From contig OX387182.1 in assembly GCA_947561395.2 (NCBI GenBank), positions 41,161,949 to 41,225,948 on the forward strand: 64,000 nucleotides of DNA, read 5' to 3'. Each line of letters opens with the position of its first letter. Position 1 is the stretch's first letter. The notes beneath the pieces were generated by a model. It was not told the DNA's origin and searched no databases. It saw only the letters and a program-made list of their open reading frames with translations. This stretch comes from Buxus sempervirens. Its lineage: Eukaryota > Streptophyta > Magnoliopsida > Buxales > Buxaceae. This document shows, one piece after another, positions 798 through 34,977 of the stretch. Made by a program: the position numbers and the translations under genes.

Positions 798-1853
798 AGG
801 AATATCACAAAGAAATGATCCGAGGCCATTTTTCTTCCTCCCTCACAAATTCTAATATCCCTAGATTAAACCAAGTTGAGCCTGTTCGTGTTTTAAAGAA
901 CCCAAACTGGAGCTTACAGTCGCGATTGGGGCAGGGTTAATAGAAAAACAAAAAGGGAAATAGAAAAGAAAGGCCAAAAGAAAAAAAAAAAAAAAAAGAA
1001 GGCCAATATTGGGAATGGGGGGTCGCATCCATTATGACTGTAAGCCCAGTTGTCCCATTTTCAAGATGTTAAAATGTTGAGCCTATAATAACCTTTTTTT
1101 CATAAACCCAACCCAGCCTTCATTTCGTCCTATCGATCAAGTCCTCGGTGATCTGGGTGTATCCCTTCAAGCTCGGGATGTTGAAAGGGCAATGACGGAA
1201 TAAACAAGCCGGTCCTAGTGAAAACCGTAACAGGCACTAGGGGCAATATTGGCAGAAAGAAGGCGAAAGAAAAAAAAAGAGAATAAAAGAAAAGGAAGAA
1301 ACAGGAAAAAGGTCACCAACCGTACTTGGGATACAGATTGAACTAAACCGCCCTTTTTCTACGGTTTTGGCAGAAGGGCTATGCAACTGCATATTGAAGA
1401 CGGTTTTGGCTAAACCGTTCTGAATGCGCGGTTTTGCGCAGCAGAAGTGAATTGAGCAGATTTTATGCACAGGACTGAACCAGTAGGCTGGGGCAGGCCC
1501 CCTGAAAGTGGGAAGGAAACTTGGGGATGAGTCTAAGGGTTCCAAGGGGGACGGATTGGCTTCCTCCTCATTAACTGAAACACCCTTTTTGCCCAAACTT
1601 TCTTCAATTCATCCAACTATATGGGATTAAAGCATGATGGACCAATTTACAATAAAAACACACAAAAATGAAAACTATATTTTGGCCGATGATGAGAAAT
1701 CAGTGACTTTTCATTAAAACTGTCAGTTTTTACAAGCATATGAGAGTTCTGAGGCCAATAGTATAAAAACCTACTTTGTATTCTCTATCTTTCCACTAGT
1801 GGAGTTTCTCTTTGTACAGAGGTATAAAAAAGAAAAAAATACAATAAAAGGGG
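798..1853 (+). other. Element A 3' noncoding region between pol and antisense DUF7745
   Basis: No protein gene is supported. This is the convergent 3' region of pol (+) and DUF7745 (-). It holds a purine-rich tract near 960-1005 and a block at about 1216-1253 (GAAAACCGTAAC, then GGGGCAATATTGGC) that recurs in the same place in C, B and D. It also holds several AACCG/CGGTT words at about 1337-1440, which belong to the motif set of this family. The last 200 bases match the 3' flank of DUF7745 in the other elements. Confidence 0.7.
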
Positions 1854-3152
1854 CTAATCTCTATCCCCTAGCCTTTCCTCAAGCTCTCTGATCCGGGCCG
1901 CCCGAACCGCCACAAGCCTTTCAGCCCCCTCTGCATCTGGGTCACTGAGGAATGAGATGACGTCATCTGAGAGGGTCTGCCTAGTCCTCATATCTCGGAG
2001 CCTGGCCATGGTTTCATCATGCCTACGCCATGCAGCTCTCACCTCGAAGCGACAGGCTTGTATCTGCTCGGATAACCGTCTCTCCAGATCTTCCTTCTCC
2101 AATCTCAAGGTTCGGGCCTCCTCCACCCATATGAGCTGAAGCCGCCTATGAGAAGCCCGCTCGGTCTCCAAGAGGTCCTCATAAGTAGGACACGGGATAG
2201 CAGGAGGATCCGCCGGTATGGAAGCGCAGCTCTGCACCTGCTCTCTAATCCAGAAGATATAGTCCTTCTCATGCAATTTGGAGAAGACAGGACCTCTCAA
2301 GAAGCAGGCCTGCGACCATTCCTTCAATAGGCGGAAGCAGAGGCCCATGGTGGCTGGTGTGAGGGGACCAATGAGTTCTTCATATCCATGAGGCACCAAA
2401 ATCCCTTGAGACTCCTCTCCAAACTGCCGGATGACTCTCAAAGGCAAGTAGAGCAAGGCAGACTTCAAGCCCATAAGCACAGCGAAGTTTTGGTCAGAGA
2501 AGCTGATCACTGTCTCGACGGAGGGCTGATAAGCACCAGGCCATCTCACCTGGTCGTCCTGAAGAGTCCCCAAGAAAGCAAACCATCCCTGTTTGCCGCC
2601 ATGTATATTGGGACACCCCCTGTTGCTCATCAAAACAAGAACGTCCAATCTGGGGAAGAAGTGCCGGGTTATCTCTTCAACCTGACTCAGGTGGTCAAGT
2701 AACCAGAGCTGCACAAAACAGGGAAGCATTTCCAACCTTAGAAAATTTCAACATGGCAATAAAAATTACAATTCAAAGAAAGAGATTCAGATTTTACCTG
2801 AAGTATAGGGGCGCAGGCAAGGAAACTTTTCTGCTTCCTGTGATAGCAGTCAGTCAAGGCCTGGTATATTTCAGCCAGGATCATAGGGGCAAGCCTTTCG
2901 CGCTCCCTAACTTGGCAAATGACTGAAATGAGGGATAAATCAACCTCGCTATCACCTCGGGGGAATAAAAGTTGATTGACCACTATCAATGTCAGAGCAT
3001 TGAACCGGGCCGACTGGTGGGAGCTATTTAACAGCTTCTCAGTCAGAAATGACTTGGATAGGGTCAATAAAGCGTCGGCTTCCCCTAACTCTTTCTTGTT
3101 AATCCCCAAAAAAGTGGAGGCTTCCTTTTTGAAGCTCGGTTTGAGAGGTGGG
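1854..3152 (-). pseudogene. Antisense DUF7745-like gene of element A, 5' end cut off by element C
   Basis: Two exons read on the minus strand: 3152-2798 (the remaining part of exon 1, donor GTAAAAT) and 2708-1854 (after TTGTGCAG). They match the 528-residue product of the intact copies in C and D from the PPLKPSFKKEAS block onward. About 120 N-terminal codons are missing because element C is inserted at 3152/3153. The C-terminal part holds a Glu/Arg/Gln-rich probable coiled coil (around residues RRLQLIWVEEARTLRLEKE). It is about eight residues shorter there than its relatives. The remaining frame has no stop. Recognition as DUF7745 rests on the FRFG...TPT.EE signature seen in the intact copies; the molecular function of that domain is not known to me. 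Confidence 0.85.
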
Positions 3153-5037: not shown

Positions 5038-5197
5038 GGCAAGGGCTAAGGTCATTGGTAGACACAACTTAATGTCTAGAACCCGTCCAGCCTAAACCCT
5101 AAGGTTATTTCCGCGATTTCCCCTCATTTAATGAGGGACATGATGGTAAAAGTGAAAAGCTCTCGGAAAACCCTAATTTTGAGCAAACTTAAGGTAT

Positions 5198-5335
5198 CCA
5201 GTATATCAGACCGGATAACAAAGGGCCTTAAGGTATCCGGTACATGGTACCGGATACGCTAAGGCTCACACGTATCCGGTATGACTATTCGGATACGGGA
5301 AAGGGTACTTGTATCCGGATACTCAATCCGGATAC
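5198..5335. promoter_or_regulatory. TATCCGG/CCGGATA palindrome cluster in U3 of element C
   Basis: Several pairs of TATCCGG and CCGGATA separated by short spacers lie about 170-300 bp upstream of the LTR TATA box. The same cluster is in every B and D LTR. Its regulatory role is inferred from position and repetition. Confidence 0.65.
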
Positions 5336-7290: not shown

Positions 7291-9908
7291 ATGGCTAGGA
7301 GTCGTTCCCGAGTTAGAGAGGAGGCTGACCCAGCTGATCAGCCCTCCAGTTCGCGGGCTCGGACAGAGGCGAGTTCCAGCGCCACTCTGTCGGAGCCGCT
7401 AGATGTCTCCAGAGAGAGCTCTGCTGAGGTAGGCTTTCAAAAAATTTTCTTTCTTTTCTTTCTTCTATTCTCCTTTCCCACACAATCTTCACACTACCCT
7501 TGGATTTTAGCCCGTGGCAGAGGCCGTGGCAGAGGCCGAGGCAGAGCCAGAGATACGGCTCCGGAAGGGGTTGCTGTAGCCCTTGCAGGAGTTCCTGAGG
7601 AGTTGAGGGCCTCTGTGCATGATACAGAGCTCCTCCATGGCTTGGATAGCCATCCTTCTATGTGCATCAGGGCAGATGTGCCGCTTCCCTATCATTCCTC
7701 CCACTTACGAGGTAGCTGGGGCAGATTTAGTGATCTAGCTCAGTCACTTTCTCCAGCACTCAGGCGGGAGTTTGGGAGGTGCCACCTAGACCATTTTCTT
7801 AGCATCCCATCCTTCAGAGCCGACCGTCCACTCATCTTTGCCATGATGGAGAGATACTTTCCAGAGACACAGTCGTTCCACCTGCCGCACGTGGAGCTGG
7901 GGATCCGCCCCTCCGATTTTGTGATGATTACTGGCATTCCTCTGACGGGGCGGACCATCGTCTTGGAGCGGCCTTCTGCGGAGGATATGGGACTTCTCCT
8001 GGGATATCAGGCCCTGCCACCTACTGCTTGGGATGGGCGGAGCGGCCGGCTCTCCATTAGCTGGCTGCGGGAGAGTCTGGCTCGACATTTCGAGGGGAGA
8101 CACAGGACTGTGGCTGTGGATGATGCTGCATTTATTCCTATCTTCCGGCACGTATTCTTGCTGATGCTGGGGAGCTGCTTCTTCTCGGAGGATACTACTG
8201 GTGTCAATCCGCTCTTTTTGGACGCTTTGAGAGATCTCCATCAGACCCGCCAGCTAGCATGGGGTCGGCTCATTTATGGGACCATCTTGGCCGGGCTGTG
8301 CCGAGCGGTTTGAGGCTTAGCATCTCCGAGAGGTGATCGAGTTAGCAGCCGGTTCTTCTGGCAGATTCTACAGGTATTGCATTCATCTGTCTGGTTTAAG
8401 TCCTTAGGCTTTATCTTTTCTTGACTGATTTTTCCTTTGTTAGGTGTTCATGTACACCTACATGACCTTCTTCCGCCCCTCCCCGGTTCCTGAGGTTGCG
8501 GATTTTCCTGTGGCCCTGCGATGGTCGGCCCAGGTTCGAGATGCCGACAGGAGCCAGCCTCGTACTGCCCGGGTGCACTTAGACCGTGCCCGCCGATCTG
8601 ATGTAAGTCCTCTATATATTTTTTCTTTCATTTCTGTTCCTGTATCTTGACTGTATCTGACCACTTTGCTTCCTTGCAGCTCATTCTGTCCCGATTTGAT
8701 GACGTGGATGTTGGGGTGGCTCGTGAGATGGCGGTACAGGACGCCTTTGATAGAGATCGACGACGTCAGCCCTACCAGTGCTTCCTCGGGAGGCTTGGTA
8801 GGGTGATGTACTTAGGAGAGCGCCTGTACTTCCAGCACACCAGCCCACTTCGCATCCCTGTCCCTCCTCCTCCTGTGGGTCCCGACACACTCTTTCCCGG
8901 CTTCGACGTGGATCAGTTTGATCATTTTCTGGATGCAGAGGGGCTCATAGTAGCCGGAGATTACGACGAGTGGTTTCAGAGGGTGTCTATTGGATGCTTG
9001 ATGGATCGACCCACTCGTGCTGGAGTGACTGAGATCGGCGGGATCCGTATCTGGATTCATGAGGACACCGTAAGTCTTATACTCTTTATATTTTCATCCC
9101 TTTTTTTCCTTATGCATTTCTGACCCTTCTTCTGTTCTTGTTGGCAGGTACACGAGCTGAATACCATCCGGGACCGGTTTGAGAGTCAGCGGGCTGCGAT
9201 CGATGATATGATCGCTGAGCACGATGCGGTCGTGGCCCAGCGGGATGCCCGGATTAGGGAGCTAGAGGCCCTGGTTGCTGAGCTTCAGGCTAGACAGGTA
9301 TCTGGCCTTCTTATATTTTCTTTTCTTTCATTTTCCTGTTTCTGCTATTCTGATATGCTTGTTTGACTTGTGCAGGGCCCGGTCCATGATCAGGATGCCT
9401 TCTTTGAGCATGATTTCCTGATTCCTGACCCATCTCCTGCTCGGGCCTCTGATCCCGAGGATGCCCCAGCGGCTGGTCTTGACGAGCCGGATCCTCCTGC
9501 TCCTTCTGCAGACATTCCTGGTACGATCTTCTTTTAATTCTCCTCCTTTATTCTTCCTTATATCTGAATCTTCTGATTTTTCTCTTTTCTGTGGACTCAG
9601 CTACTTCTGATCCTGGCCCCTCTGCTGCTGATGCTGGGCCTTCTGGAGCTGCGGGAGCAGAGGGTGCTTTGGATGAGGACCCAGTTGGGCCGGTTGCTGC
9701 TGAGCCCGAGGCTTCTTCCCCAGATTCTACTCCTGCTCCTCCCCCAGATCTCGAGGATTATTGCTTGGAGTATCATCTTCAGCAGGTGGTGGGTCGGCAT
9801 CCTCGCCATGCAGCCGAGCGGATCCTTGCATACTCTAGAGGCCGAGCACTTTGGGGGAGAGGCCGTAGAGGTGGACGCGGCCGAGGACGCGGGGATGATC
9901 CTGCATAG
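7291..9908 (+). pseudogene. Plant mobile domain (PMD) gene, antisense cargo of element C, decayed
   Basis: Seven coding exons can be traced by homology to the A copy and by GT-AG ends: 7291-7428, 7511-8373, 8444-8602, 8680-9069, 9148-9297, 9376-9520 and 9601-9908. The order is a Ser/Arg-rich N-terminus, a plant mobile domain (signatures such as RPSDF.MITGIPLTG and SWLRESL, in exons 2-4), a coiled coil in exon 5 (IRELEALVAELQ), a Pro/Ala/acid-rich region, and an Arg-Gly-rich tail. Intact length would be about 718 residues. Two lesions are visible. The frame of exon 2 is not met by phase-0 splicing from exon 1, and TGA 8311-8313 stops it where the A copy has a Ser codon. PMD proteins occur as host genes (MAIN/MAIL1 type) and in plant transposons; the role in this element is unknown. 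Confidence 0.8.
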
Positions 9909-10390
9909 GAGTAGATTAGGATTTTTTTCATTTTCATGTATTTATATCATCATCTCTGTACAAAACTTCCAGATATATATGAAAAAACTTTTTATTCATT
10001 CTATCATGTCTTGCACATCTTTTGTTCTCAATTTTATGCAATTATGACATGTAAGCAGGTAAAACAGGTAAAAAATTCGGATTTTTTCATCCTTAGCTCT
10101 TTTTTTGCATTTTTTCTCGGTATCCGGTCTGACATACCGGATACATTGATTGGTCTTTGTATCCGGTATGTCATACCGGATATTCATGGAATCATCTGTA
10201 TCCGGTATACTTATCCGGATATTACTAAAGCCTTTGTATCCGGTCTGAGTTACCGGATACGTTAAAAGATGCTATAAATGCAACCAGTCTCGGGATTTGA
10301 GCATTTTTTTACGAGTTTTTGAGTTTAGAAACCCCCTTTTTCGCCTTTTTCTTCCTCCTCTTGAGTTCTAGCTTGCTCCCGTCAAATCCA
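9909..10390 (+). promoter_or_regulatory. PMD 3' end, TATCCGG cluster and DUF7745 promoter, element C
   Basis: Spacer between the two antisense genes. After the PMD stop it holds T-rich sequence, then several TATCCGG/CCGGATA sites at about 10118-10262, then a TATA box TATAAATG (10273-10280) in the context GCTATAAATGCAACC. The first ATG after it is at 10391, giving a leader of roughly 85 nt. The TATA box is kept in D at 59858-59865. This is the clearest internal promoter in the window. Confidence 0.7.
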
Positions 10391-12090
10391 ATGGAATCCG
10401 GATCATCTTCTGCCCCATTATTGTCTGTCCACACTGCCTCCCCTGCAAAACAGCCTTTTAGATCAAAACCCCCAAATCTCACTAGGTACAACCCTGTGGA
10501 TTCCTTTTACACAAGGTGGGTTAACTCTATGACCCTAGATGAGGAGAGGAGATGGGGTTCTACTAATCTAGGCCATACCCTGCTCATTCCCAAGGTTCCC
10601 TTCAGGTGGGAGATTATAGAGGCCATGATTGGTCATTGGGTTCCTGATCTCAACTTGTTCCGTTTTGGGACCCATGAGATGACCCCAACCATTGAAGAGG
10701 TGGAAACCATCCTGGGCCTGAGGTTTGATGAGAAGGTGGTGAATCCACCTCTTAGGCCCAGTTACAAGAAGGAAGCTTTTACTTTTTTGGGCATAGGGAA
10801 GAAGGACTTGGGGGATTCTGACACCCTTTTGACCCTATCTAAGGCTTTTTTGACTGAGAAGCTTTTGAGGGGAGAAGATAAGGAGGCCCGATTCAATGCG
10901 TTGACCCTGATAGTGGTCAACCAGTTGCTTTTCCCACGGGAGGATGACGAGGTGGACTTGGCCTTGATTTCCGTGATATGCCAGGTTAGGGAGCGGGAGA
11001 GGTTAGCCCCTATGATTTTAGCTGGGATATATCAGGCCTTAACCGACTGCTACCATAGGAAGTCGAAACGCTTCCTAGCATGTGCCCAGATCCTGCAGGT
11101 AAAAAAGTTTTTTTTTTCTTGCTTTTTGGCTTTCTTTTTGCCTTTTTTGCTTTTTTTATTTTTTATTTTTTATATATACAATGTGCTGACACCTCTCTCT
11201 TCCTTTTGCAGCTTTGGCTACTTGATCATTTGAGCCAGATTGAAGAGATCAATCGACACTTCTTCCCGAGTCTAAAAGTCCCTCTCTTGATGAGCAACAG
11301 GGGGTGCCCCGATATTCCAGGGGGCAAACAGGGCTGGTTCACCTTCTTGGGCTCGCTTCAGGATGACCAGGTGAGATGGCCTGGTACTTATCAGCCTAAT
11401 GCGGAGACAGTGATTAGCTTCCGAGACCGCAACTTTCTGATTCTGGCTGGCCTGAAGCATGCAGTGTTGTATCTTCCTCTGCGGGTCCTTCGTCAGTTCC
11501 GTGCGACCCAGGGGATTATCATCCCATGTGGATATGAGGATCGTCTTGGACCCCTTTCTATGAAGTTGAATGCCTGGTTGATGAAGGAGTGGTCTTATGT
11601 CCGCTTTATGCATGGTCCAGTCTTCTCAGAAGCCCATGTGAAGGATTATCTCTTCTGGATCAAGGAGCAGATACAGACTCAGGCCCCAATACCCGAAGAT
11701 CCTCCTGTGGTCTTGGCTCCCACCTATGAGGACATTCTAGAGTCTGAGCGGGCTTCTCATAAGCGGCTTCAGCAGATATGGGTACGGGAGGCCCAGGAGC
11801 TCAGGATACAGGGTGCTTATCTGGAGAGGCAGCTTGAGGAGCAGATCTCCCGCCGTATTGCCGTGGAAGAAAAGCTGGAGGAGCAGAGGCAGGCTCGTTG
11901 CTTTGAGGTCCGTATGATCCGGCAGAAGTACCAGGATACTTTGGCCAGCCTTAGGAGTATGCGGATCAAGCAGGCCCTTTCAGATGAGGTCATTTCCTTC
12001 TTGAGTGATCCCGCTGCAGAGGGGGCTTCAGGAGTCATTGCAGCTCAGGCAGCTCGGATTCGGGAGCTTGAGGAGTGGCTAGGAGATTAG
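10391..12090 (+). CDS. DUF7745-like antisense protein of element C (two exons, 528 aa)
   Basis: Exon 1 is 10391-11098 (ends CTGCAG/GTAAAA); exon 2 is 11212-12090 (after TTTTGCAG). Both join in phase 0 to give 528 residues. The start is the first ATG after the TATA box; the frame continues upstream but without an ATG. Residues about 35-230 match the DUF7745 type found in many plant transposon proteins: WVNSMTLDEERRWG, then HWVPDLNLFRFG followed by MTPTIEEVETILGL. Residues about 390-525 are rich in Glu, Gln, Arg and Leu and look like a coiled coil (RLQQIWVREAQELRIQ). There is no catalytic motif or membrane segment. It runs opposite to gag-pol, convergent with pol. AATAAA at 12168 is a possible poly(A) signal. 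The open frame in C, D and the remnants in A and B suggests it was kept by selection. The function is unknown. Confidence 0.85.
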
Positions 12091-19853: not shown

Positions 19854-20228
19854 TGTAGACACCCCAAATTGCACAAACAATCATAAAAAATCATTATCTC
19901 CTGGAAAGCCAGCACAGAATTTGAAGAAAATAAACTTTTACCTGTATCCGGATACAAGTACCCTTTCCCGTATCCGGATAGTTATACCGGATACGTGTGA
20001 GCCTTAGCGTATCTGGTACGATGTACCGGATACCTTAAGGCCCTTTGTTATCTGGTCTGATATACCGGATACCTTAAGTTTGCTCAAAATTAGGGTTTTC
20101 CGAGAGCTTTTCACTTTTACCATCATGTCCCTCATTAAATGAGGGGAAATCGCGGAAATAACCTTAGGGTTTAGGTTGGAGGGGTTCTAGACATTAATTT
20201 GTGTCTACCAATGACCTTAGCCCTTGCC

Positions 20229-20236
20229 TATAAATA
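20229..20236 (+). promoter_or_regulatory. TATA box of element B 5' LTR
   Basis: TATAAATA in GCCTATAAATAGG, kept in every LTR including the diverged A family (41791-41798). This is the likely promoter of the genomic RNA. Confidence 0.8.
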
Positions 20237-20337
20237 GGAGCCTCCTCCTTGAGCAAATGGCACACAACTCTTGTTTTGAATTCTCGCAAAGAAGAACTCC
20301 AAGAGAAGAAGAAAACCGCTGTGGAATCGCCTCCAGC

Positions 20338-20349
20338 ACTCAGGTAAGC
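20338..20349 (+). promoter_or_regulatory. Candidate splice donor inside the LTR of element B
   Basis: CTCAG/GTAAGC with the break after 20343, about 107 nt after the TATA box and preceded by a GAAGAA-rich stretch. It is kept in D (after 44537). The A-family LTR has CCAAG/GTAAAG at the same distance (after 41903). With the acceptor at 25755-25768 it would define a leader intron of 5.4 kb. Confidence 0.55.
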
Positions 20350-22114
20350 CTCAACTTTTCTTTTTATTTTCTGTCTTTACATTCCTAAATCTAGATCTCT
20401 TCTTCTACCTTTCTGTAGTGTAAAGCCTTGTTTGTATGTGTGGAAATCCTTCCCTGGCTCAAAGTATCTCAAGACTCCCCTAGCCGTAAAACGTGAAGGC
20501 GGATCTAGGAGAAACGAGACTAGGGATTGACCCTAGTGCTAGAACCTATGTAGCATAAGGCCTTTTGATTGATTGTAAACCGTTCCATATTCAAAGTACC
20601 CTTGATTATCTTAAAGAGAACAGAGGGAAACGATAATGGAACGGAACCCTAGGCTATGCTAGAACCTATTTTGTTGAATATATATGCATGTGTATGGATC
20701 TTGCTTGGTTTTTTTCACTTTTGCACACATATCACTATTTTGGCGGGATAGGCTCATATTTGGGGTTTATTGCATTTATTGTGATAAATCTCAAATAAAT
20801 GGCCTCAATCAATTCTGGAATGCCTTTCGGATGATTTTAAAGTATTTGTGTTCATCTTGCACGAATTTCATTTTTATCAATTTTCGGACTTGGTTTTACT
20901 CAAAAGTGGCTTAGCTGGACAGCACCTGTACCCTTACTTCGGACGTCCGTAACTTCATCATCCGGATGAATTTTGGGGCGATTCCAGAACCATGGGAAAG
21001 GTGAGGCTGTCTAGTTTATGTCCACCAAATTTCATGAATTTCTATCCAGCCGATTTTTGACACTTCTCTGTCGAAGTTAAGTGGACAGTTCAGGTCCAAG
21101 TACAGAACTTGTCACTTTGACGGACCGCCATGTGTTCGTTTTAAGTCCGATTCGAGTGGTTTTTATTTCTGAGTACTCCTTTTTCAGTCTATTTTCAAAT
21201 CCAGTTGCTTTCATAATTTTTGGATTCCATTTGAATTATTGGTAGCCGATTTACTCAGAACTGCTCATTTGCATTTTTCTGGGTAAATCTGTGATCTTCG
21301 GGGCCTGTTCAGGAGACCACCCAAGGCACATCCGAAGGGATTTTTGTATGAGGCTAGTTTCTGTTGAAAGATGGCCATACAGACTTCAATCACACCAAAT
21401 TTCACGGATTTCTATGTAGTGGATTTTTCTAGACAATTTTCCAAAGTTGCCCACTTACCACTTTTAAAAATCCCCAACAGCAACTTCAAAGGAGCATAAC
21501 TCCTAGATTTTTCATCGGAATGAAGTGAAATTTTGCATGAGACTCTTGTTTACCCTAATCTTTCAAATGGATTTGGTTTGGGTCAATTTAGAATCGGATT
21601 TGAATGATTTCAAGGCAAATGGTATACTTTTTACCGAATTTTCCGGATTTGATTTAACTTGGTTTTGAGCAACTTGTGCTTTGATTTCCATCTTTTGAGA
21701 TATTCCAGAAATGATATTGACATGAGAAAGGATCTAAAATCCATTTAGATCTTCATGTGAAAATATCATTCATTTGATCTTTTTCAAGGTTTCTCATGAA
21801 TTTTAGCAAGCTTTCTTACTTTATTTTTGCATGAACATACACTTGGCAACCACTTCGTGTGGATGAATGGGGGTGCCTAACACCTTCCCCCGTTCATAAT
21901 CTAATCCCCTTACCCATCTCTGGATTTGATTTTCAAGAAGGGTTATTTTTACCCTAGAATTTGTCTTTTGGCTATTTTTGCCTACTTTTGAACTCTTTGG
22001 TGTCCATTCTCACCCCAAAATCATGAATGGTGGCGACTCTCCCAATTTTTGCGTTGAGCCCGTGTGTTGACGGAGGGACGATCACCCCGGTGATTTTTTC
22101 CCATGTCTCACAAC

Positions 22115-22132
22115 TGGCGACTCTGCTGGGGA
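22115..22132 (+). other. Primer binding site of element B
   Basis: TGGCGACTCTGCTGGGGA starts two bases after the LTR end. TGG pairs with the CCA end of a tRNA. Ogre-type elements are known to use a tRNA-Arg primer and this sequence is of that kind; the exact tRNA was not checked. Confidence 0.8.
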
Positions 22133-24057
22133 CTTGTGGATTTAAGCCTATTTGTGTATATTCATGCTTTTTCTTCACTTTTGAATGCTTGCTATTTTGC
22201 TTTTTGTGAATATTGTTGTATCTTAAATCTGAATGGGATGCTTAAAATTTTTCATGGATAAGGGCATGGTTATGTTGCTTGATTTGGTTTAAGGGAAAAA
22301 CCCACATTGTTATATGACTTTTGCTATATTATGTGTTAACATTGGTTTTGGGGTTAGGATACCATGAAAAAATATACAATATTGGAAATCTGGAAATTTT
22401 GTGTTTGTCTTGGTTGTTCAAGCATGTTTCCCATGAATAAAATATGTTTTGTGCTCAATGTTTGCTTTATGCCATGCTTGGGATTTTGGGGGTATGATGA
22501 CATGATTTGAGCGGGAAAATAATGAGCAAAAATCTGTAAATACAGTAGCCATTAGGATGGTTTTCAAGCATGTTTTCCCTCATTAAAACACTTTGGTATC
22601 ATGTCAAGTAGTTGCTAAATTTTTTGGGCATTAATTTGGGGTATAAGGGAAGCACTTTTGAGCATGAAAATTCTGGAAATTTCAGTGTATATTTGGGGGA
22701 TTTCAAGCATGTTTTACCTCATTGAAACACTTTTGAACCATGCCAAGTAGTGCTAAAATTTTAGGTTCCAATTTGGGGTAGAAATGGTACACTTTGAGCA
22801 TGAAAAAGAGCATGAAAATCTGGAATTTTAGGAATGCTTTTGGGTTTCAAGCATGTTTACATGATTTAATTGGTGTTTGTGCAAATAACATGTTTTGTAG
22901 ACCACTTTTTGGGCATGTAATATTTTTGTGCATATTTGGTGCTTGCTTGCTTGTATTTAGCTTCATTATTTTTGTCATATGTACATTGGCTTGAAATTGA
23001 ATGCATGGCTACGAAAAAGAGTGGCAAGGGGCTGGGACGTTGTGAATGTTACCACAATTTAAAATTGCACTTGAGCACTTGAAACAATTTGCACAGCCTA
23101 CCCTTTACCTATTAGGAAGTTGAACCATAAATGTGTGTAGCTTGGCGCACCGAGGTCGTGACTTCGGAAAGCGAAAGTGAAAACATTTACCTTAGAATTT
23201 GAGTCAATGATGTGATGACAATGGGATCTGTGATTCGATTCCGGGCATCACTAGACTTGAGTTCTAAGTTGCCAATTAAGCCAAAACCCAAAAACCATAC
23301 GCTTGAAGGTGGAGAAACACGTTTTTGGCCAAAAGCACACAATTGCGTTTGGGGAATTGGGTGTAAATGTGGGAAGGCCGTTTGCATGTTTTACAGGCCA
23401 AGGTATAATGTGAATACCATATTGAATGAAGGTAATACAAGGTGGCAAGGTAAAGCCATGTCTTTTTCTTAAATTTGAGGAATTTTGCAAGTGTGATGTC
23501 CAAGCCCAATTTGGGGCAAGTTTTGAAGGTCAAATTAAGGTGAACATCAATCGGGAATGAAAAGAATCAAATCTGGTGAAAAAAATGAGTCAAAAAGGGC
23601 CATTTCGGCAATAACCGCCAACTCAGGCCGGTTAATAACAACCCTGCTCATATCCGGTATATATTTCCGGATAAATAGGCATATGCGTGAATCCGGTTAT
23701 GGTAACCGGATACAATAAGGCATATCCTTATCCGGTATATTATACCGGATGCGTTCAAAAAATGCACAAATTGGCTGTTCAGCCCAAATTTTCAGAATAA
23801 AATGCCTAAAACACTGTGGATAATCCTTAGGCACCCCGAAAAAAACATAAGAAATGTTCCCAAAAATACAAAGAAAAAATATAAAAAAAAACAAAAAAGA
23901 GTAAAACAAAATATTCTTTCAGGATTTAACCTAAGTTTGAAAATCAAGGAGGAAACCAATGTGTCATATTTTTGACACCAACTCAACTCAAACAGGTGTC
24001 AATCAAACTCTGGAACTTGAAAACTGAGAAAAATTCAGCAAATTTGAAGAAAAAAAA
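22133..24057 (+). other. Leader of element B: imperfect repeats and TATCCGG cluster
   Basis: No convincing gene. About 22420-22870 holds four imperfect repeats of 110-140 bp, each starting TTCAAGCATGTTT and running into a Thr/Leu-free AT-rich stretch. D has a shorter version (about 46600-46890). At about 23648-23755 there is another TATCCGG/CCGGATA cluster. At 23961-24001 short inverted repeats (GTGTCA/TGACAC, TGACACC/GGTGTCA) come just before the minisatellite; D has GGTGTCA/TGACACC at 48011-48031. Confidence 0.6.
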
Positions 24058-25640
24058 ACCTTTGGTTGGTTATTTTTATCAATCAAATCAAACAAAAAAA
24101 AAATGAAAACCTTGGTTGGTTATTTTTATCAATCAAATCAAAAAAGGTGGGACACTTGGAAGCCCTAGAATATTCCATGAAAACCTTGGTTGGTTATTTT
24201 TATCAATCAAATCAAACAAAAAAAAATGAAAACCTTGGTTGGTTATTTTTATCAATCAAATAAAAAAAAGTGGGACACTTGGAAGCCCTAGAATATTCCA
24301 TGAAAACCTTGGTTGGTTATTTTTATCAATCAAATCAAACAAAAAAAAATGAAAACCTTGGTTGGTTATTTTTATCAATCAAATCAAAAAAAAGTGGGAC
24401 ACTTGGAAGCCCTAGAATATTCCATGAAAACCTTGGTTGGTTATTTTTATCAATCAAATCAAACAAAAAAAAAATGAAAACCTTGGTTGGTTATTTTTAT
24501 CAATCAAATCAAAAAAAAGTGGGACACTTGGAAGCCCTAGAATATTCCATGAAAACCTTGGTTGGTTATTTTTATCAATCAAATCAAACAAAAAAAAAAT
24601 GAAAACCTTTGGTTAGTTATTTTTATCAATCAAATCAAAACATTTGTGGGATACTTGGATAGAGTAGTCTAAGACACCTTTGGTTGGTTATTTTTATCAA
24701 TCAAATCAAAACATTTGTGGGATACTTGGAAGCCCTAGAATATTCCAAGACACCTTTGGTTGGTTATTTTTATCAATCAAATCAAAACATTTGTGGGATA
24801 CTTGGAAGCCATAGAATATTCCAAGACACCTTTGGTTGGTTATTTTTATCAATCAAATCAAAACATTTGTGGGATACTTGGAAGCCCTAGAATATTCCAA
24901 GACACCTTTGGTTGGTTATTTTTATCAATCAAATCAAAACATTTGTGGGATACTTGGATAGAGTAGTCCAAGACACCTTTGGTTGGTTATTTTTATCAAT
25001 CAAATCAAAACATTTGTGGGATACTTGGAAGCCATAGAATATTCCAAGACACCTTTGGTTGGTTATTTTTATCAATCAAATCAAAACATTTGTGGGATAC
25101 TTGGAAGCCCTAGAATATTCCAAGACACTTTTGGTTGGTTATTTTTATCAATCAAATCAAAACATTTGTGGGATACTTGGATAGAGTAGTCCAAGACACC
25201 TTTGGTTGGTTATTTTTATCAATCAAATCAAAACATTTGTGGGATACTTGGATAGAGTAGTCCAAGACACCTTTGGTTGGTTATTTTTATCAATCAAATC
25301 AAAACATTTGTGGGATACTTGGATAGAGTATTCCAAGACACATTTGGTTGGTTATTTTTATCAATCAAATCAAAACATTTGTGGGATACTTGGAAGCCCT
25401 AGAATATTCCAAGACACCTTTGGTTGGTTATTTTTATCAATCAAATCAAAACATTTGTGGGATACTTGGATAGAGTAGTCCAAGACACCTTTGGTTGGTT
25501 ATTTTTATCAATCAAATCAAAACATTTGTGGGATACTTGGATAGAGTAGTCCAAGAAACCTTGGTTGGTTATTTTTATCAATCAAATAAAAAAAAAAAAT
25601 TTTTGGGACCCTTGGAAGCCCTAGAATATTCCAACTCAAA
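24058..25640 (+). repeat. Minisatellite of about 23 units, leader of element B (76-bp main unit)
   Basis: Each unit has the core TTGGTTGGTTATTTTTATCA followed by ATCAAATCAA and a variable tail. Three tail types occur in blocks: a short A-rich linker, GTGGGACACTTGGAAGCCC, and ACATTTGTGGGATACTTGGA with either GCCCTAGAATATTCC or TAGAGTAGTCC. The main spacing is 76 bp, with about 71 bp for the TAGAGTAG type. In RNA the core can fold on itself (UUGGUUGG with UCAAUCAA). Reading frames through the array are by-products of the repeat. Confidence 0.95.
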
Positions 25641-25754
25641 AAAAAAAAATAAAAACAAAAAAAAAAAAAAATCTGGATTGGTGTTCACCTAACCCACTGG
25701 CTTACATATATAGGGGTGTGACTCAAGTTAAATGAAAGCTAACATGTTCTATTC

Positions 25755-25768
25755 ATTTTTTTCCTCAG
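25755..25768 (+). promoter_or_regulatory. Candidate splice acceptor before gag, element B
   Basis: TTTTTTTCCTCAG/GTACATT. D has TTTTCTCAG/GTACATTT at 49802-49811. The first ATG after it is 25831, which starts the conserved part of gag-pro; sequence before it differs between B and D. This supports 25831 as the true start. Confidence 0.5.
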
Positions 25769-25830
25769 GTACATTCAACCCAGGTACACTTGCAATCATT
25801 GCTCCAGTAACCAGATCCAAAGCAAGAGCC

Positions 25831-28800
25831 ATGAATCCTGAAGAGAACCAAGCCCAAGCTACTGTCCCCGTTCAGGACTTCACTCAACTGCAGGAGCAAG
25901 TGGCCGGTCTGGCCAAAATGCTGGGGGACCTATTGGCGGCTCAGGCCCAACAGGCCCAAGCCCCGAACCAGGCATCTACTTCCCATCAGGCACCACCACC
26001 TCAGGCCTACATTCCGCCTCCGGTTCAGCCCATGCCTGAGCCCATTTCTGAACCAGTCCCTGAACCCATTTTGATCAGGGAAAATATGGCGGAGTCTGAG
26101 AAAGAGCTGGAGAAAGAAAAGGCCCGAGATGAGATGGAAAAGAAAATGCTGCTGAGGATAGAAAGAATCCAGGCAGAGCTGAAGGAAGTGAAGGGGGGAG
26201 GCAGCCATGCAGGCACCACCTTCGAGGACCTGTGCATGTACCCGGACGTCTGTCTACCGGCTAAGTTCAGGTGCCCGGATTTTGACAAGTTTGATGGCAC
26301 GGGCTGCCCATTGAGCCATCTCAAATTATACTGCGGGGCCCTGTGCCAGTTTGGCCGGGATGATGGCATACTGATCCAGCTCTTCCAGAGGAGTCTGACC
26401 GGGTCAGCCCTTCGGTGGTTCGCTACAGTGGACCATGGAAGGATTAGGAGGTGGAAGGACCTAGCAGACGCTTTCTTGGACCAGTACAAGTTCAACTCGG
26501 AGATCGTGCCGGACCGGTACGACATGATGAGGATGACCAAGGGGAAGGATGAACCGGTGCGGCAATACGCCAAGAGGTGGAGAGAGGCCGCCTCCCAGGT
26601 CAGGCCACCTATGCAAGAGCCGGAGATGATCTCCACATTTATGGGCACACTAGGGCAGCCCTTTTACAACCATCTGGTGGGCCAGATCACCACCAACTTT
26701 ACAGCCCTGGTGCAGGTGGCTGACCGGATCGAAGAAGGGGTCAGGTCAGGAAGGCTGATAGACTACTCTACTCTGACTGGGCAGTCTGATTCCTCTGCCT
26801 CTATGGCCCAGAAGAAAGGGGCCGGGTTTAAAAAGACAGGGGCCCGAAAAGAAGGGGAGGTGAACCTGGTCCAGGCTCCTCCAGCCAAGAAGCCACTTCA
26901 TGTGAACATCTCGGCACCCCAACAGGCCCAACAGGCCCAGCAGTCGTACCAGACCCCGATGAATGTCAACTTCTCTCCGTCTGTGCCAAGTAACACAAGG
27001 AGGACTTTTTCTAAGGAGGAGCGGGATGCCTGGTTCGCAGCAAGAAAGAACCGGGTTTTCACCCCTCTACCCATATCTCTTTCCCAACTATTGCCAACCC
27101 TGCTGAAAGGGGAATATTTGACTCTGAAAGAGCCCAACCCGAATGCCACCAGGGAGAGAAATTTTGACACATCGGTTACCTGTGACTTCCACATGGGTGC
27201 ACCGGGGCACTCTACTGATACATGCTGGGTATTGAAGCATGCAGTCCAGGATTTGTTGGACCAGAAGGCCTTGGTGTTCAACACTGCTGCACCGGCCCCG
27301 TCCGGGAATGATATTGGGCAGAATCCTCTGCCTTACCACAATGGGGCAAGCCCATCCAACTCCATCACTGCCATATCCACCACCAGAAGGGCCTTTGACC
27401 CATCACAACTTATAGCACCAGTAGGGACCACTGTCCAGGTCCATTTTTTCCCAGAGGAGGACGAAGAGGAGATCAACATGGTCTCCCAAAAAAATAATAA
27501 TCTTGCTGCTGAGGACATAAGTTCCTCTTTAAACCGGGTCTCTTCACTCATGGCCCAGATGAATACTGCAAGACCCCCATTGGTCTTCAATTGCAGTCCA
27601 TCCACTTATTCCCCATCCAAGCCGTCTAAGGCTCCACTGGTCATCAATCTTGACCCCACCACTGCTTCCATCACTTCTTCTGTCCCCACCAAATCCAAAC
27701 TTCAACCCCTGGTTGTAAATGTGCAGCCAGCCCAAACTATCCCTAAACCGGCCCATACATCCCGGTCCAGACTCCAGCCATTAGTGGTTAACATCCCTAA
27801 ACTAGCCTATTCAGAGGCCGCTGTACCATGGAATTACAGCGAGGGAATCACGGCTACGGTTCCAATGGTCAGGAACCAGAACCAGGAGGAGGTGAACCTC
27901 ATGACGAGGTCGGGGAGATGTGCAGGGGGTGAAGAGAAAGAAAAGGAGACAGAAACAGAAAAAGAAAAAATAGAAAAAGAAAATGAAGAAAAAAGAAAAC
28001 AGAAGGGAAAAAATAAAGTAGGAGAAGACACCCCCCAGGGTGCAGAAAATGAGGCAGCCGACCTCATTAAAATAATAAAGAAAAGTGAATTTAATCTTGT
28101 GGATCAGCTAAACAAGGTCCCGGCCCAGATTTCAATACTGGGCCTTTTGCTGAATTCTGAAAAGCACAGGGATGCATTGTTAAGGGTGCTACAGAGTGCA
28201 CACGTATCCCAGACCATTGATCCGGACCAGCTTGGTAAAATGGTTGGTCAAATCTTGTCACATAATGTGATAAGTTTCTCAGAGGGTGAGATCAGCCCAG
28301 GTGGGTGTTATCATGTGGACCCTTTGCACATCACTGTGCTTTGTAAGGGCTGCATGGTTGCACGGGTTTTAATTGACAACGGGTCGGCATTAAACGTTTG
28401 CCCGTTAATCACTTTTACCAAGCTGGATCTGGACCTGTCAAGGATCAAAAGAAATGGGCGAATAGTGAGGGCTTTTGATAGCTCCAAGACCCACTCCCTA
28501 GGGGAGATTGAACTGCCGGTCACAATTGGGCCGAATATCTTTAACATCACATTTGAGGTGATGGATATACCCGCAGCCTTCAATCTGCTCCTAGGAAGGC
28601 CGTGGATACATTCGGCTAGGGCAATACCATCCACGCTCCACCAAAGGGTGAAATATGTAAGAGGGCAAAGGGTGATAACAGTCCTAGCCGAAAACTTGGT
28701 GCCGCCCATTGTGTCACCTGATGTACCCTTGATCAATGTGGACTTGACTGTCGACAAGATTGCATTCCACTCATTTCAATTTGAGGCGGTAAATTACATA

Positions 28801-29544
28801 CCTGGGGGGTGTGAGAAAAAGAAAGAAAAGGGGACCACTGCAGAAGGAATGGTCAAGAAAGTGATGGAGAAATACCACTTTCACCCAGGGAAAGGCCTGG
28901 GGATCAATCTGCAGGGGATGGTGGAGCCAATCACGGCTAAGAAACTGATCCCCAAGGTAGGGTTGGGCTTCAAGCCCAGAGGCTGGAGAAGAATGAAGCA
29001 CGAAGAAGGGGAGAGCAGAAGCAAAGGAAAACACCCTCATTTAAGGGAAAGCTTCCCAAAACCCTCCTACATAATCCAAATTTCTCCTCCTATGGACCAA
29101 TCCAAACCTCCCTACTACAATGTCAACCCATTTCAAAAGCCTTCTGTTTCGGCTTTGCAACCATATAACCCCTCTCCGATACTGGAAACAGTGGATGGGC
29201 CTGGACCACAGCCCGAGCAGCAGGTGGACTTTTCTGAAGATGTTGGTGCATTCTTCGCCATGACTGAAGGCGAAAAGACAGGGGCAGACATGGAACTGCC
29301 ATTCATTGATTGGGCCGCAGTAAAGGTTCCAGACAAGGTCATTTCTGGATCGAACCCCGTAGCAGAAAAGGGCAGTACCCACTCGGTGATGATGGCATCG
29401 GATTCGGGGTTTGAAGAGCAGGCTTTCCCTATTTCCCCTGCTCCCCAAAATTTTGTACTAAACAATTGGGAGGAAACTCCCCTTACCTTTGAAGCAGCGT
29501 CTGTGTGGCAAACTGACGCGGCTTCCAAAAAAAAACTCCAATAG
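25831..29544 (+). CDS. gag-pro: Gag-protease polyprotein of element B (1237 aa, intact)
   Basis: Structural protein and protease for virus-like particles. I start at ATG 25831 (MNPEENQAQ); the frame is open from 25732 but the upstream codons are not conserved with D. Order: Gln/Ala/Pro-rich region (about 20-90), Lys/Glu coiled segment (90-125), retrotransposon gag domain (about 130-310, with LPAKFRCPDFDKFDG and LRWFATVDHG), degenerate knuckle CX2HX5HX4C (451-465), Pro/Ser and Lys/Glu-rich linker, aspartic protease with the active-site word DNGSALNVCP (Asp 849), and a G-patch (about 1010-1030, PGKGLGINLQG). DNGS instead of DTG/DSG is usual in this group. It ends KKKLQ-stop with the A9 tract two codons before the stop. 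It is the only uninterrupted gag-pro in the window. Confidence 0.93.
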   Translation: MNPEENQAQATVPVQDFTQLQEQVAGLAKMLGDLLAAQAQQAQAPNQASTSHQAPPPQAYIPPPVQPMPEPISEPVPEPILIRENMAESEKELEKEKARDEMEKKMLLRIERIQAELKEVKGGGSHAGTTFEDLCMYPDVCLPAKFRCPDFDKFDGTGCPLSHLKLYCGALCQFGRDDGILIQLFQRSLTGSALRWFATVDHGRIRRWKDLADAFLDQYKFNSEIVPDRYDMMRMTKGKDEPVRQYAKRWREAASQVRPPMQEPEMISTFMGTLGQPFYNHLVGQITTNFTALVQVADRIEEGVRSGRLIDYSTLTGQSDSSASMAQKKGAGFKKTGARKEGEVNLVQAPPAKKPLHVNISAPQQAQQAQQSYQTPMNVNFSPSVPSNTRRTFSKEERDAWFAARKNRVFTPLPISLSQLLPTLLKGEYLTLKEPNPNATRERNFDTSVTCDFHMGAPGHSTDTCWVLKHAVQDLLDQKALVFNTAAPAPSGNDIGQNPLPYHNGASPSNSITAISTTRRAFDPSQLIAPVGTTVQVHFFPEEDEEEINMVSQKNNNLAAEDISSSLNRVSSLMAQMNTARPPLVFNCSPSTYSPSKPSKAPLVINLDPTTASITSSVPTKSKLQPLVVNVQPAQTIPKPAHTSRSRLQPLVVNIPKLAYSEAAVPWNYSEGITATVPMVRNQNQEEVNLMTRSGRCAGGEEKEKETETEKEKIEKENEEKRKQKGKNKVGEDTPQGAENEAADLIKIIKKSEFNLVDQLNKVPAQISILGLLLNSEKHRDALLRVLQSAHVSQTIDPDQLGKMVGQILSHNVISFSEGEISPGGCYHVDPLHITVLCKGCMVARVLIDNGSALNVCPLITFTKLDLDLSRIKRNGRIVRAFDSSKTHSLGEIELPVTIGPNIFNITFEVMDIPAAFNLLLGRPWIHSARAIPSTLHQRVKYVRGQRVITVLAENLVPPIVSPDVPLINVDLTVDKIAFHSFQFEAVNYIPGGCEKKKEKGTTAEGMVKKVMEKYHFHPGKGLGINLQGMVEPITAKKLIPKVGLGFKPRGWRRMKHEEGESRSKGKHPHLRESFPKPSYIIQISPPMDQSKPPYYNVNPFQKPSVSALQPYNPSPILETVDGPGPQPEQQVDFSEDVGAFFAMTEGEKTGADMELPFIDWAAVKVPDKVISGSNPVAEKGSTHSVMMASDSGFEEQAFPISPAPQNFVLNNWEETPLTFEAASVWQTDAASKKKLQ
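29527..29535 (+). other. A9 tract, candidate -1 frameshift site, element B
   Basis: Gag-pro frame AAA AAA AAA CTC CAA TAG. The pol frame (-1) is open from 29517, just after TGA 29514-29516, so both frames are open only for 28 nt and the tract lies in this window. A slip of one base back gives AAA ACT CCA and continues without a stop into RT. Confidence 0.6.
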
Positions 29545-32500
29545 TAGAATGCCATTTCCCTGAAGGTTCTAATGGGCCTTCGTCTTCAGGGGAATTATGT
29601 TTAGAAGGCCCACAAAAAACCCAAAAAGATTTTTCTATTTTTTCTAGAAAATTTAAATTTTTCAAAAAAGTCCAAACCACTTATGAACCATATAATCAAA
29701 CCGAATTGGACCAGGTTGAATATGACTTCGATCTTGAGCTCGACTTTGATCTCATGGGGGTCGAAAAAGAGACCGAGATCGAAGAAGAAGACGTTCCAAA
29801 AGAAATTGAATACCAATTGGAACGTCATGAAAAGGGGGTCCAACCTAATATTGAGGAGACCATATCCATAAATCTTGGGACCGAAGAGGACCCAAAAATT
29901 GTGAAAATCGGGTCATGCTTGTCTGATGTGCAGAAAAATGAAATGTCACAGTTCTTGGCAGATTACAAAGATGTGTTCGCTTGGTCATATCAGGACATGC
30001 CGGGGTTGGACACTGACATGGTGGTGCACAGGTTGCCAATTTTGCCAGGGGTTAAGCCGATTAAGCAGAAGCTGAGAAGATTGAAGCCGGAATGGACCTT
30101 AAAGGTCAAGGACGAAGTGGTCAAACAATTTCAAGCCGGATTTTTGGCAGTCTCTACGTACCCAGAGTGGCTCGCAAACATAGTGCCAGTACCAAAGAAA
30201 GATGGGAAAGTCCGAATGTGCGTGGACTATAGAGACTTGAACAGGGCAAGCCCAAAGGACGATTTTCCGCTTCCACACATCGACATTCTGGTCGATAATA
30301 CTGCGGTACATAGCCTGTTTTCCTTCATGGATGGCTTCTCGGGATATAATCAGATCAAGATGGCTAAGGAGGATCAAGAAAAAACGGCATTTATCACACC
30401 TTGGGGCACATTCCACTATACAGTCATGCCGTTTGGGCTTAAAAACGCTGGGGCAACATACCAGCGGGCCATGACTGCACTATTTCATGACATGATCCAC
30501 AAGGAGATGGAGGTCTATGTGGACGATATGATTGCCGAATCATGCAAAGAGGAGGACCACTTGATCAATCTGAAGAAAGTGTTTGATCGGCTCAGGAAGT
30601 ACAGTTTACGGCTTAACCCGGCTAAGTGCGTCTTTGGGGCTACATCAGGGAAGTTACTGGGGTTTATAGTGAGCCGAAGAGGAATTGAAATTGACCCGGC
30701 TAAAGCCAAGGCCATAATTGAAATGCCAGCACCCAGAACCGAGAAGGAGGTCAGGGGGTTTCTTGGAAGAATTCAATACATAAGCCGGTTCATAGCACAG
30801 CTCACTGCTATCTGTGAACCAATTTTCAAACTTTTGAGGAAAGATAACCCGACGGTCTGGAATGAGGACTGCCAGCAGACATTTGACACAATAAAGAGGT
30901 ATTTGCTAAACCCACCTGTGCTAGTGCCACCAACTCCAGGAAGACCTCTGATCCTATACTTGTCAGTGTTGGAAACGTCGATGGGATGTGTCTTGGGGCA
31001 GCATGATGAGACTGGTAGAAAAGAAAGGGCAATTTACTATCTGAGTAAAAAATTCACGGAATATGAAGCCAAATACTCACCATTGGAAAAGACTTGCTGT
31101 GCTCTAGTGTGGGCCACTCAGAGGCTAAGGCATTATTTCCTTAGTCACTCCACACTATTAATATCCCGGATGGACCCGCTAAAGTATTTATTTGAGAAAC
31201 CGGCACTGACTGGCAGAACAGCAAAGTGGCAACTACTACTGTCCGAGTTTGACCTCACATACATCACCCAGAAGGCGATCAAGGGTCAAGCCATAGCTGA
31301 TCACCTGGCTGCACATCCTCTGCCAGAATATCAACCCTTGAAGACCAACTTCCCAGATGAGGCAATTCTGTACACTGAAGAGGAGGACAGTAAGAGTTCT
31401 TGGCAGATGTTCTTCGATGGGGCCGCCAACATGAATGGGAACGGAATAGGGGCAGTCTTGGTTAAACCGGATGGTTCACACATCCCGATTGCAGTAAAGC
31501 TGAGATTCCAGTGCACTAATAACATAGCAGAATATGAGGCATGCAAAATTGGATTGCAAGCAGCCATGGATCATCGAGTAGAGGAACTTGACGTATATGG
31601 GGATTCGAGTCTTATCATCTTCCAAACAACTGGTGAGTGGACAACCAAGGATCACAAATTGATCCCCTATCACCAGTACTTGGAAGAAATAAGCACAAAT
31701 TTCACTCGAATTTCCTTCAACTATATGCCAAGGGCCAAGAATCAGTTTGCGGATGCTCTAGCAACATTAGCTTCAATGGTCAGCATACCAGAAGGAGTAG
31801 ACATCAGACCGCTGGAAATTGAGGTCCGAGATGAACCGGCTTACTGTCTCGTTCTAGAGGGAGCACCAGAAGAAGAAACACCATGGTTTCAAGATATCAA
31901 GAATTTCTTGAATAATCGGAGTCTGCCAGAGAATGCCACTGCTACTGAGAAGAGGACAATACAGAGATTGGCTGGTCAATTTCTGCTAAGCGGTGGACAT
32001 GTGTACAAGAGGTCACATAACGACATTCTGCTAAGATGTGTTGCCAAGGCGGAATCGGAAAGGCTGATTGAGACTGTACATGGAGGAGTCTGTGGGCCCC
32101 ATATGAGTGGGCACATGCTGGCTAAGAAGATCCTGAGGCTGGGATACTACTGGACGACCATGGAGCATGACTGCTGTATACATGTCAGGAGGTGCCATCA
32201 ATGCCAAATCTATGCAGACAACAAGCATGCACCCCCAGGTGAGCTGCACAACATGACATCACCCTGGCCCTTCTCTATGTGGGGCATAGATGTTATTGGC
32301 ATGATCTCCCCTAAGGCATCGAACGGGCACAGATTCATCTTGGTGGCAATTGATTATTTCACTAAGTGGGTGGAAGCAGCTTCATATGCGAACATCACTA
32401 GCAACCACGTTATTAAATTTTTGAAGCACAACATTATTTGTCGCTATGGACTGCCAAGTGCCATAGTATCAGACAACGCTTCAAATATTAAGAACAAGGA

Positions 32501-33131: not shown

Positions 33132-34064
33132 GTGAATATTTCTAGGAAATGATCCGAGGCCATTTTTCTTTATTTCCTTCAAAAATTTTAATCCCTACTC
33201 TAGCCAAGTTGAGCCGGTTCGTTTCTTTGATCAACCTAAACCGGATTTACAGTCAAATTGGGGCAAAATCAATTGGGGCAAAAGTGAGGAAAGAAAAAGA
33301 AAAAGAGAGGAAAAGCAATGGAAATGGCAAATGAAAGTCAAGTGTGAAAAATGCAAAAAATGCAATTTGGGGAAAAAGGGTTAAATTCATCATGACTGTA
33401 AGTCCGGTTGACCTATTTCCACACTTGAAAATTTTTGGGCCTTTAATACCCTTTCTTTCATAAACTGAGCCTAGCCTTTATTTCGTCCTATTTTTAAGCC
33501 CTCGGTGATCTTGGCTTGTTCATTTAAATATCAGAGTAAGATGGGTGATGACGGAATTCAGAAGCCGGCCCTAGTGAAAACCGTAACTGGCGCTAGGGGC
33601 AATATTGGCAAAAAGGCAAAAAAGAAAAAAATAAGAAAAATGAAAGAAAATCAGAGGTTGAGTTGATCATGGGGATCTGAGCTTCAAGCAAAGTCGGCAT
33701 GAGCAGAATGGGGCAGTTTTGGCAGTTGGGGATGACTCTAAAGGTCCTAAGATGGACGGTTCTGATCCCTCAGTATTTTGTGGACTACCCTTTTCATTAT
33801 TTAACCTGGTTCTAATTCCTTTAATTATAGGTGATTAAGTGCGTGGACCAAATTTCAAAAAATACAAAAAAAATAAAAAAGGAAAAATTATACTTTGGCC
33901 AATGATGATAAATCAAATACTTTTCATAAAACCTTTGTTTTTACAAGCATCTGAGCATTCTGAGGCCAATAATATAAAAACTTTATTTTGAATTAAATCC
34001 TTTGTCTTTCCACTATTGGAGTTCAATTTTGTACAAAGGTATGAAAAATGTGCAGGAAATAAAG
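33132..34064 (+). other. Element B 3' region between pol and DUF7745 remnant
   Basis: Noncoding, colinear with 57182-58095 of D. It has A/G-rich stretches near 33285-33330 and the conserved block at about 33575-33612 (GAAAACCGTAACTGGCGC, GGGGCAATATTGGC). Confidence 0.65.

Positions 34065-34972: not shown

Positions 34973-34977
<5 letters not shown>

Follow-up and report, generated by a model that had tools for sequence, protein, structure and literature searches.

Palindromic arrays common to the LTRs and antisense promoters of Ty3/gypsy retrotransposons of Buxus sempervirens: candidate sites of a putative dimeric regulator

The analysed window, i.e. the whole 64,000-bp stretch of Buxus sempervirens DNA, contains three closely related, and non-independent, LTR retrotransposons, designated B, C and D. 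Element C extends from position 3153 on the minus strand, with an LTR at 3153–5425, and is cut on its 5′ side. The two other elements are as follows:

19854..38257, plus strand: element B, a Ty3/gypsy element with dual RNase H and TSD CTAGC; DUF7745 exon 1 and PMD are missing
44035..63596, plus strand: element D, of the same family as B, with TSD CTATC; the PMD gene body is missing

The paired LTRs are 98.8% (B) and 99.3% (D) identical. The pol frames of C and B encode RT, RNase H, a second RNase H (RVT_3) and integrase, in that order, which is the domain order of Tat/Ogre-type Ty3/gypsy elements; a dual RNase H is described as a Tat trait (PMC9289625). Long tandem repeats with units of 71–123 bp are located between the leader array (see below) and gag of B (24055–25634) and D (48097–49687), and their unit make-up differs between the two copies. 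The gag of B is open, that of D (49779–53591) is split over several frames, and the pol frame of D is open.

An older related element is also present, in segments 1–3152, 19437–19853 and 38258–43623, which share one order and orientation and look like a single older copy interrupted by the insertions of C and B. Its pol end is approximately 78% identical to those of B, C and D. The following LTR was identified:

41211..43623, plus strand: 3′ LTR of the older element; over 42486–43556, its identity to the B/C/D LTRs is about 66%

Between pol and the 3′ LTR, element C carries two antisense genes, DUF7745 and PMD. The antisense genes of C and of the older element are listed here:

10391..11098 (exon 1) and 11212..12090 (exon 2), plus strand: DUF7745 (PMD-related) gene of C, antisense to gag-pol
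7291..9910, plus strand: antisense PMD gene of C, with several exons; PMD match within 7522..8289; the 3′ end is approximate
1863..3151, minus strand: antisense DUF7745 gene of the older element (exon 2 at 1863..2708, part of exon 1 at 2798..3151), cut by the C insertion
38259..39300, minus strand: 5′ part of the antisense PMD gene of the older element, with its ATG at 39300 and a PMD match at 38259..39008

The exons of the C DUF7745 gene are separated by a GT-AG intron (11099–11211; splice sites read from the sequence), and the older PMD gene continues across the B insertion into 19437–19853. Since the DUF7745 exon is also matched by the PMD model, the two antisense genes look related. Both PMD genes have an apparent 5′ UTR intron (6416–7290 and 39301–40346; splice sites assigned by eye) whose acceptor directly precedes the ATG, a gene structure common to both lineages. 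The C PMD protein contains Gly-Arg repeats (GRGRGRGR) before the PMD match (7522–7557) and near its C-terminus (9855–9905), which may resemble AT-hook or RGG stretches.

Between the lineages, dN/dS reached 0.18–0.22 for DUF7745 exon 2, 0.06 for the exon 1 part and 0.17 for the PMD exon, values that are rough at a dS of 1.2–2.5. Among B, C and D, the ratio for DUF7745 exon 2 was 0.17–0.24; for the exon 1 part (C vs D) it was 0.51, based on few changes. These ratios suggest purifying selection on both antisense genes. Among the ORFs and exons of the antisense genes that were scanned with Pfam, none showed a known DNA-binding domain. A low-confidence structure model (mean pLDDT 48.2) predicts a 94-residue helix near the end of DUF7745 exon 2, possibly a dimerisation coiled coil; both this model and that of the PMD exon (mean pLDDT 44.8) were too poor for a fold search. 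The PMD/DUF7745 alignment had two matches among solved structures, with E 0.81. No relative of the DUF7745 exon was detected at E ≤ 0.001 among 2,224 candidate proteins.

According to the original prediction, one palindrome set (TATCCGG...CCGGATA) is located upstream of every promoter of the B/C/D family. Counting both strands, we found 69 matches to TATCCGG in the 64-kb window, compared with 3.31 expected from 100 dinucleotide-preserving shuffles (largest value 9); the anticipated enrichment over shuffled sequence is thus present within the window. As many as 68 of these matches lie inside eleven clusters, which together occupy 1,262 bp of the 64,000 (cluster limits set in this analysis), and the only match outside them, at 42868, stands alone in the LTR of the older element. 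All eleven of the ranges originally assigned to clusters contain such sites. The listed coding sequence (29,350 bp) contains none of the 69 half-sites, in agreement with the earlier statement that coding regions are free of clusters. The arrays are as follows:

5195..5335, minus strand: type I array in U3 of the C LTR
19945..20071, plus strand: type I array of the B 5′ LTR (U3), with two CCGG to CTGG changes and a length 13 bp below that of the 3′ LTR array
36078..36217, plus strand: type I array in U3 of the B 3′ LTR; the last site starts 180 bp before TATAAA
44126..44265, plus strand: type I array in U3 of the D 5′ LTR; the last site starts 180 bp before TATAAA
61421..61560, plus strand: type I array in U3 of the D 3′ LTR
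23612..23755, plus strand: array in the gag leader of B; the first unit is the variant TAACCGC...CCGGTTA
47665..47805, plus strand: array in the gag leader of D; the first unit is TAACCGG...CCGGTTA
10121..10262, plus strand: type I array before the antisense DUF7745 gene of C, with four 23-bp palindromes; the last site starts 36 bp before TATAAA (10273)
59879..59901, minus strand: the one type I site left at the antisense DUF7745 promoter of D, 36 bp ahead of TATAA
6014..6075, plus strand: type I array at the antisense PMD promoter of C; the TATA box is changed relative to D
60683..60744, minus strand: type I array at the antisense PMD promoter of D, whose gene body is missing; the proximal site starts 33 bp before TATAA

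As a background for the spacing between sites and TATA boxes, TATAA occurs 30–40 bp downstream of 0.8% of the plus-strand positions of the window. The placement of the palindrome at promoters applies to the LTR U3 regions and to the antisense promoters of C and D, but B has lost both antisense promoters, and at the DUF7745 promoter of D one site is kept while the remaining ones are gone. To say that every promoter carries the motif is too strong also because the leader clusters, together with a cluster of the older element at 1318–1433 (see below), are located at no shown promoter. The sites in the gag leaders are real, but a promoter adjoining them lacks support: within 350 bp of the leader clusters, a sense-strand TATAWA was found once in B (+151) and not at all in D. 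The leader clusters were correctly located in the original prediction, except that each starts one 39-bp unit earlier (23612 and 47665).

The predicted motif is present, and its description could be refined. The type I unit is a 23-bp palindrome, TATCCGG-N9-CCGGATA, with the CCGG cores placed on a 13-bp lattice. Neighbouring cores within the clusters are separated by 13, 26, 39 or 52 bp in 50 of 52 intervals (25 bp in the other two), which corresponds to what is usually a 39-bp repeat holding two CCGG cores 13 bp apart. In comparisons between the cluster kinds (LTR U3, DUF7745 promoter, gag leader and PMD promoter), the 14 arm bases were on average 94–100% identical, in contrast to 31–56% for the nine inner bases and 23–44% for the 16-bp spacers. 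These figures are based on nine units (three from U3 of B, three from the DUF7745 array of C, two from the leader of B and one from the PMD array of C) with the last units and the variant unit of the leader set aside. Units entered the comparison through their motif match, which pushes up the arm identity; no such choice acted on the spacers or on the length they keep. Such a pattern, with arms and spacing kept and the spacer letters nearly free, would be easier to reconcile with selection on half-sites bound by a protein than with a minisatellite copied recently, although the lattice itself is likely to have originated as an old minisatellite.

The first unit of both leader clusters is a variant, TAACCG(G/C)...GGCCGGTTA (at 23612 in B and 47665 in D). 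It represents a half-way form, TAACCG(G/C)...CCGGTTA, with a T/A swap on both arms. Among the 34 type I sites, 7 of 13 deviations are C>T or G>A, which suggests that these sites were methylated at some time. The observed/expected CpG ratio of the array is 1.4, compared with 0.62 for the whole LTR; the ratio is raised because CCGG is part of the motif, and is by itself uninformative.

The assumption of a single palindrome set holds for B, C and D, but it overlooked a second type, new here, in the older related element. This type II palindrome, AACCGc-N9-gCGGTT, has the same CCG-N11-CGG geometry as type I, and it forms the following arrays:

41324..41590, plus strand: type II array in U3 of the older LTR, with six palindromes, of which five have a gap of 11 and the sixth a gap of 12
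40770..40870, minus strand: type II array at the antisense PMD promoter of the older element, with three AACCG-N11-CGGTT sites at 39-bp spacing
1318..1433, strand not assigned: further type II cluster in the older element, flanked by the end of pol and by the 3′ end of antisense DUF7745, without an obvious promoter

In U3 of the older element the spacing is less regular and the last site starts 222 bp before TATAAA; at its PMD promoter the proximal site starts 34 bp before TATAA. The place in B, C and D that matches 1318–1433 carries no type I cluster. With at most one mismatch allowed, the older element (a count set that includes about 410 bp beyond its LTR) contains 11 AACCG-N11-CGGTT sites, while 60 shuffles never gave more than three at any gap from 0 to 39. 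The two motif types are near-exclusive by lineage: (i) type I half-sites number 68 in B/C/D (54,351 letters) vs 1 in the older element (9,395 letters), (ii) AACCGCA/TGCGGTT is absent from B/C/D and occurs 10 times in the older element, and (iii) B/C/D contain only two gap-11 AACCG/CGGTT sites, both of them the leader variants, and no gap stands out.

Alignment of the PMD promoters of C, D and the older element revealed a common stretch downstream of the TATA box. The proximal sites of D and the older element share 16 of 23 bases, and their non-palindromic centre is kept but for one base (TCTGAGTAT and TCTGTGTAT, respectively). Apart from this centre base, the differing positions mirror each other in three pairs; in two of these, the bases are exchanged for their complements (T to A with A to T, and G to C with C to G). 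Three mirror pairs would arise by random placement with a nominal probability of 0.002, but this value is not independent evidence, since the mirror placement largely follows from both sites being palindromes. To judge from the alignment, the two represent a single site in which both arms have changed. A shift of specificity in a dimeric binder would be expected to leave a kept centre flanked by two changed arms; an RNA stem could match this pattern as well.

The original prediction proposed that one trans-acting factor acts on both strands through these sites. This is the best-supported reading of the data, but the identity of the binding protein stays putative. The evidence is drawn from one window and two lineages. 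We infer that a protein binds the arrays, that it does so as a dimer, that it is encoded by the element, and that it acts by activation or anti-silencing rather than repression. The arrays would accordingly be cis sites of a putative dimeric regulator of the U3 and antisense promoters, with PMD/DUF7745 as the source of specificity and the motif shifting together with the protein; we consider the chances of this reading to be about even. In this mechanism, the candidate dimeric regulator would bind the arrays at U3 and at the antisense PMD-family promoters, and its binding would link gag-pol transcription to how much PMD-family protein the element provides. Either or both of the PMD and DUF7745 proteins, singly or within a complex, may bind the arrays of their own family as the specificity factor or a part of it; such binding would switch on or un-silence U3 and regulate the element's own genes. 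Protein and motif would change together between lineages (TATCCGG vs AACCGC per arm), while the CCG-N11-CGG geometry would stay. Elements B and D have recently transposed without a full set of antisense genes, yet they keep the U3 and leader arrays, as would be expected if the product acts in trans.

The nearest precedent named in the original prediction, the VANC anti-silencing proteins of the Arabidopsis VANDAL (MULE) DNA transposons (PMC5735166), is strengthened as a comparison by the related element, which has a different motif at both the LTR and the PMD promoter and keeps the geometry. In the VANDAL elements, as described in that source, short motifs accumulated via tandem repeats in noncoding regions, related families differ in their motif, and the encoded protein recognises its own family (PMC5735166); the counterpart proposed here is putative. 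Correspondingly, the motif in the present elements is repeated in noncoding parts and absent from coding parts, and the related families (two lineages only) carry different motifs. The systems differ in that VANDALs are DNA transposons with motifs of 8–9 bp, whereas the elements studied here are LTR retrotransposons with long palindromes of fixed geometry and PMD-family proteins. DUF1985 is a domain of VANDAL/Ulp1-type elements. By Pfam, the encoded proteins are PMD/DUF7745, and a DUF1985 match in the older PMD exon (38259–39008) had an E-value of 0.1, below the cut-off. We do not file the antisense proteins as VANC.

The accessory genes of foamy viruses are in sense orientation. Foamy-virus Tas/Bel1 offers a second parallel, as one element-encoded factor that is reported to bind both the LTR and an internal promoter (PMC517496, PMC4929722); the host is a vertebrate and the element a retrovirus, binding in the present case is putative, and no relation to PMD proteins is claimed. 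Antisense additional ORFs have been described in the plant Ty3/gypsy elements Grande (gene23), RIRE2, Retand and PvRetro13, with an unsettled function for which a nuclear or accessory role was proposed (PMC7264820). The accessible part of that source mentions neither a palindromic array common to the LTR and the antisense promoter nor a motif switch for these elements. Among open-access titles and the opening parts of abstracts, no report was found of one palindrome array common to the sense and antisense promoters of a plant LTR retrotransposon.

Viral sequences were also inspected. In the search for pol protein relatives, four stretches matched a pattern, and none of the four encodes such a relative. 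In the viral collection, the palindrome pattern matched 107 stretches, which by our own estimate is about the chance level for 14 fixed bases. Among the 80 of these that were listed, L050 was the only contig with multiple copies; its seven listed ORFs look phage-like, and it was taken as a coincidence. Irregular TTATCCGG repeats are present at 3480–3800 of this phage-like contig, in a stretch without listed ORFs, and seem unrelated.

Plant LTRs are commonly driven by host activators, and both TATCC and AACCG are possible MYB-type cores. The main rival explanation is that the arrays are enhancer sites of host transcription factors, e.g. of MYB type (TATCC/GGATA in B/C/D and AACNG in the older element), exploited at both promoters. 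The location of the arrays upstream of TATA boxes is consistent with this, but two factors would have to be adopted in concert at both promoters, with CCG-N11-CGG and the position of the sites kept. The specific suggestion of a host MYB recognising a TATCC core is weakened, as this core is absent from the type II consensus and is not common to the two types, although AACCG could still be read as MYB-type. On balance, we regard the use of host factors as rather unlikely.

According to another explanation, which appears improbable, the arrays are minisatellites that were spread or homogenised within each element by recombination or template switching, and no conserved factor is involved. The 39-bp tandem structure is in keeping with such an origin, as is the recurrence of inner bases such as TCTGA across several clusters. 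The 13-bp difference between the arrays of the two B LTRs reflects array turnover after insertion, which a minisatellite would also show. However, in recent homogenisation the spacers would be copied together with the arms, and drift would not leave just the arms untouched, while the arms are nearly invariant and the spacers near random with their length kept; the choice of units by motif match softens this argument.

Since MAIN and MAIL1 are described as silencing factors (PMC5418596), an element PMD protein might also repress, and the arrays could be silencing targets of the host or of the element's PMD protein, serving autorepression or the nucleation of methylation. The sites at the antisense promoters abut the TATA box, and the share of C>T and G>A deviations noted above is as expected after cytosine methylation. 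On the other hand, it is hard to square recently transposed elements with the keeping of silencing-attracting arms, unless copy number is being limited, and we consider this explanation very unlikely.

Least probable of all, with hardly any chance of being correct, are hairpins in the genomic RNA with a role in packaging, dimerisation or processing: the arms do pair (each of the seven arm positions is Watson-Crick paired in 32–36 of the 36 sites counted, namely the 34 type I sites and two leader variants, four-mismatch matches being left out), the clusters lie within the expected transcript of the element and a stem would also give the mirror-symmetric change between types, but the type II position after CCG is an unpaired A-C in 6 of 11 gap-11 sites, ten type I arms are loop-less palindromes TATCCGGATA (TATCCGG matches paired 3 bp apart), and the sites 33–36 bp before the antisense TATA boxes have a placement that suits DNA binding.

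The reading that we prefer, in which element-encoded PMD-family proteins would act through the arrays, touches on what is described for PMD proteins elsewhere. The plant mobile domain, common to host silencing proteins, is described as a domain of unknown function, and the same review raises the possibility that elements produce PMD proteins to counter silencing (PMC8616336); PMD-A clades encoded by gypsy elements have been described (PMC5418596). The promoters of genes that need the cellular PMD proteins MAIN/MAIL1 carry the DOWN motif (PMC7156037, PMC9899485), which in the MORC1 promoter reads CATGCAGTTT (PMC9899485); the accessible parts of both papers leave open whether the PMD complex contacts chromatin. 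As is proposed for the elements, PMD proteins are here tied to transcription through a promoter motif, and DOWN resembles the type II half-site, but the instance compared is a single 10-mer and not a palindromic array. Scored against a matrix of 24 type II half-sites (12 sites, the two-mismatch site at 1318 being left out), CATGCAGTTT gave p-values of 0.0073–0.0145 under four null models, vs 0.16 for type I; the comparison is post hoc and concerns one instance, with two motif types tried and uncorrected. The closest half-site is CATGCGGTTT at 40848. We treat this resemblance as a lead only.

In its widest form, the proposal is that the PMD/DUF7745 proteins of giant plant gypsy elements are sequence-specific, dimeric DNA-binding regulators of lineage-specific palindromes at their own LTR and antisense promoters, that co-evolution of motif and protein isolates the families, and that the cellular DOWN motif descends from such a site. 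As a whole this is a tentative possibility, which we hold to be more doubtful than the regulatory role of the arrays. If it is true, the cellular DOWN motif was kept when the host took over an element protein. The two lineages side by side provide matched cis arrays at both promoters together with a natural difference in specificity, which makes the pairing of protein and palindrome directly testable. If an element protein does bind, this would reveal a self-recognition or anti-silencing system in LTR retrotransposons and would provide a plausible ancestry for the MAIN/MAIL1 pathway.
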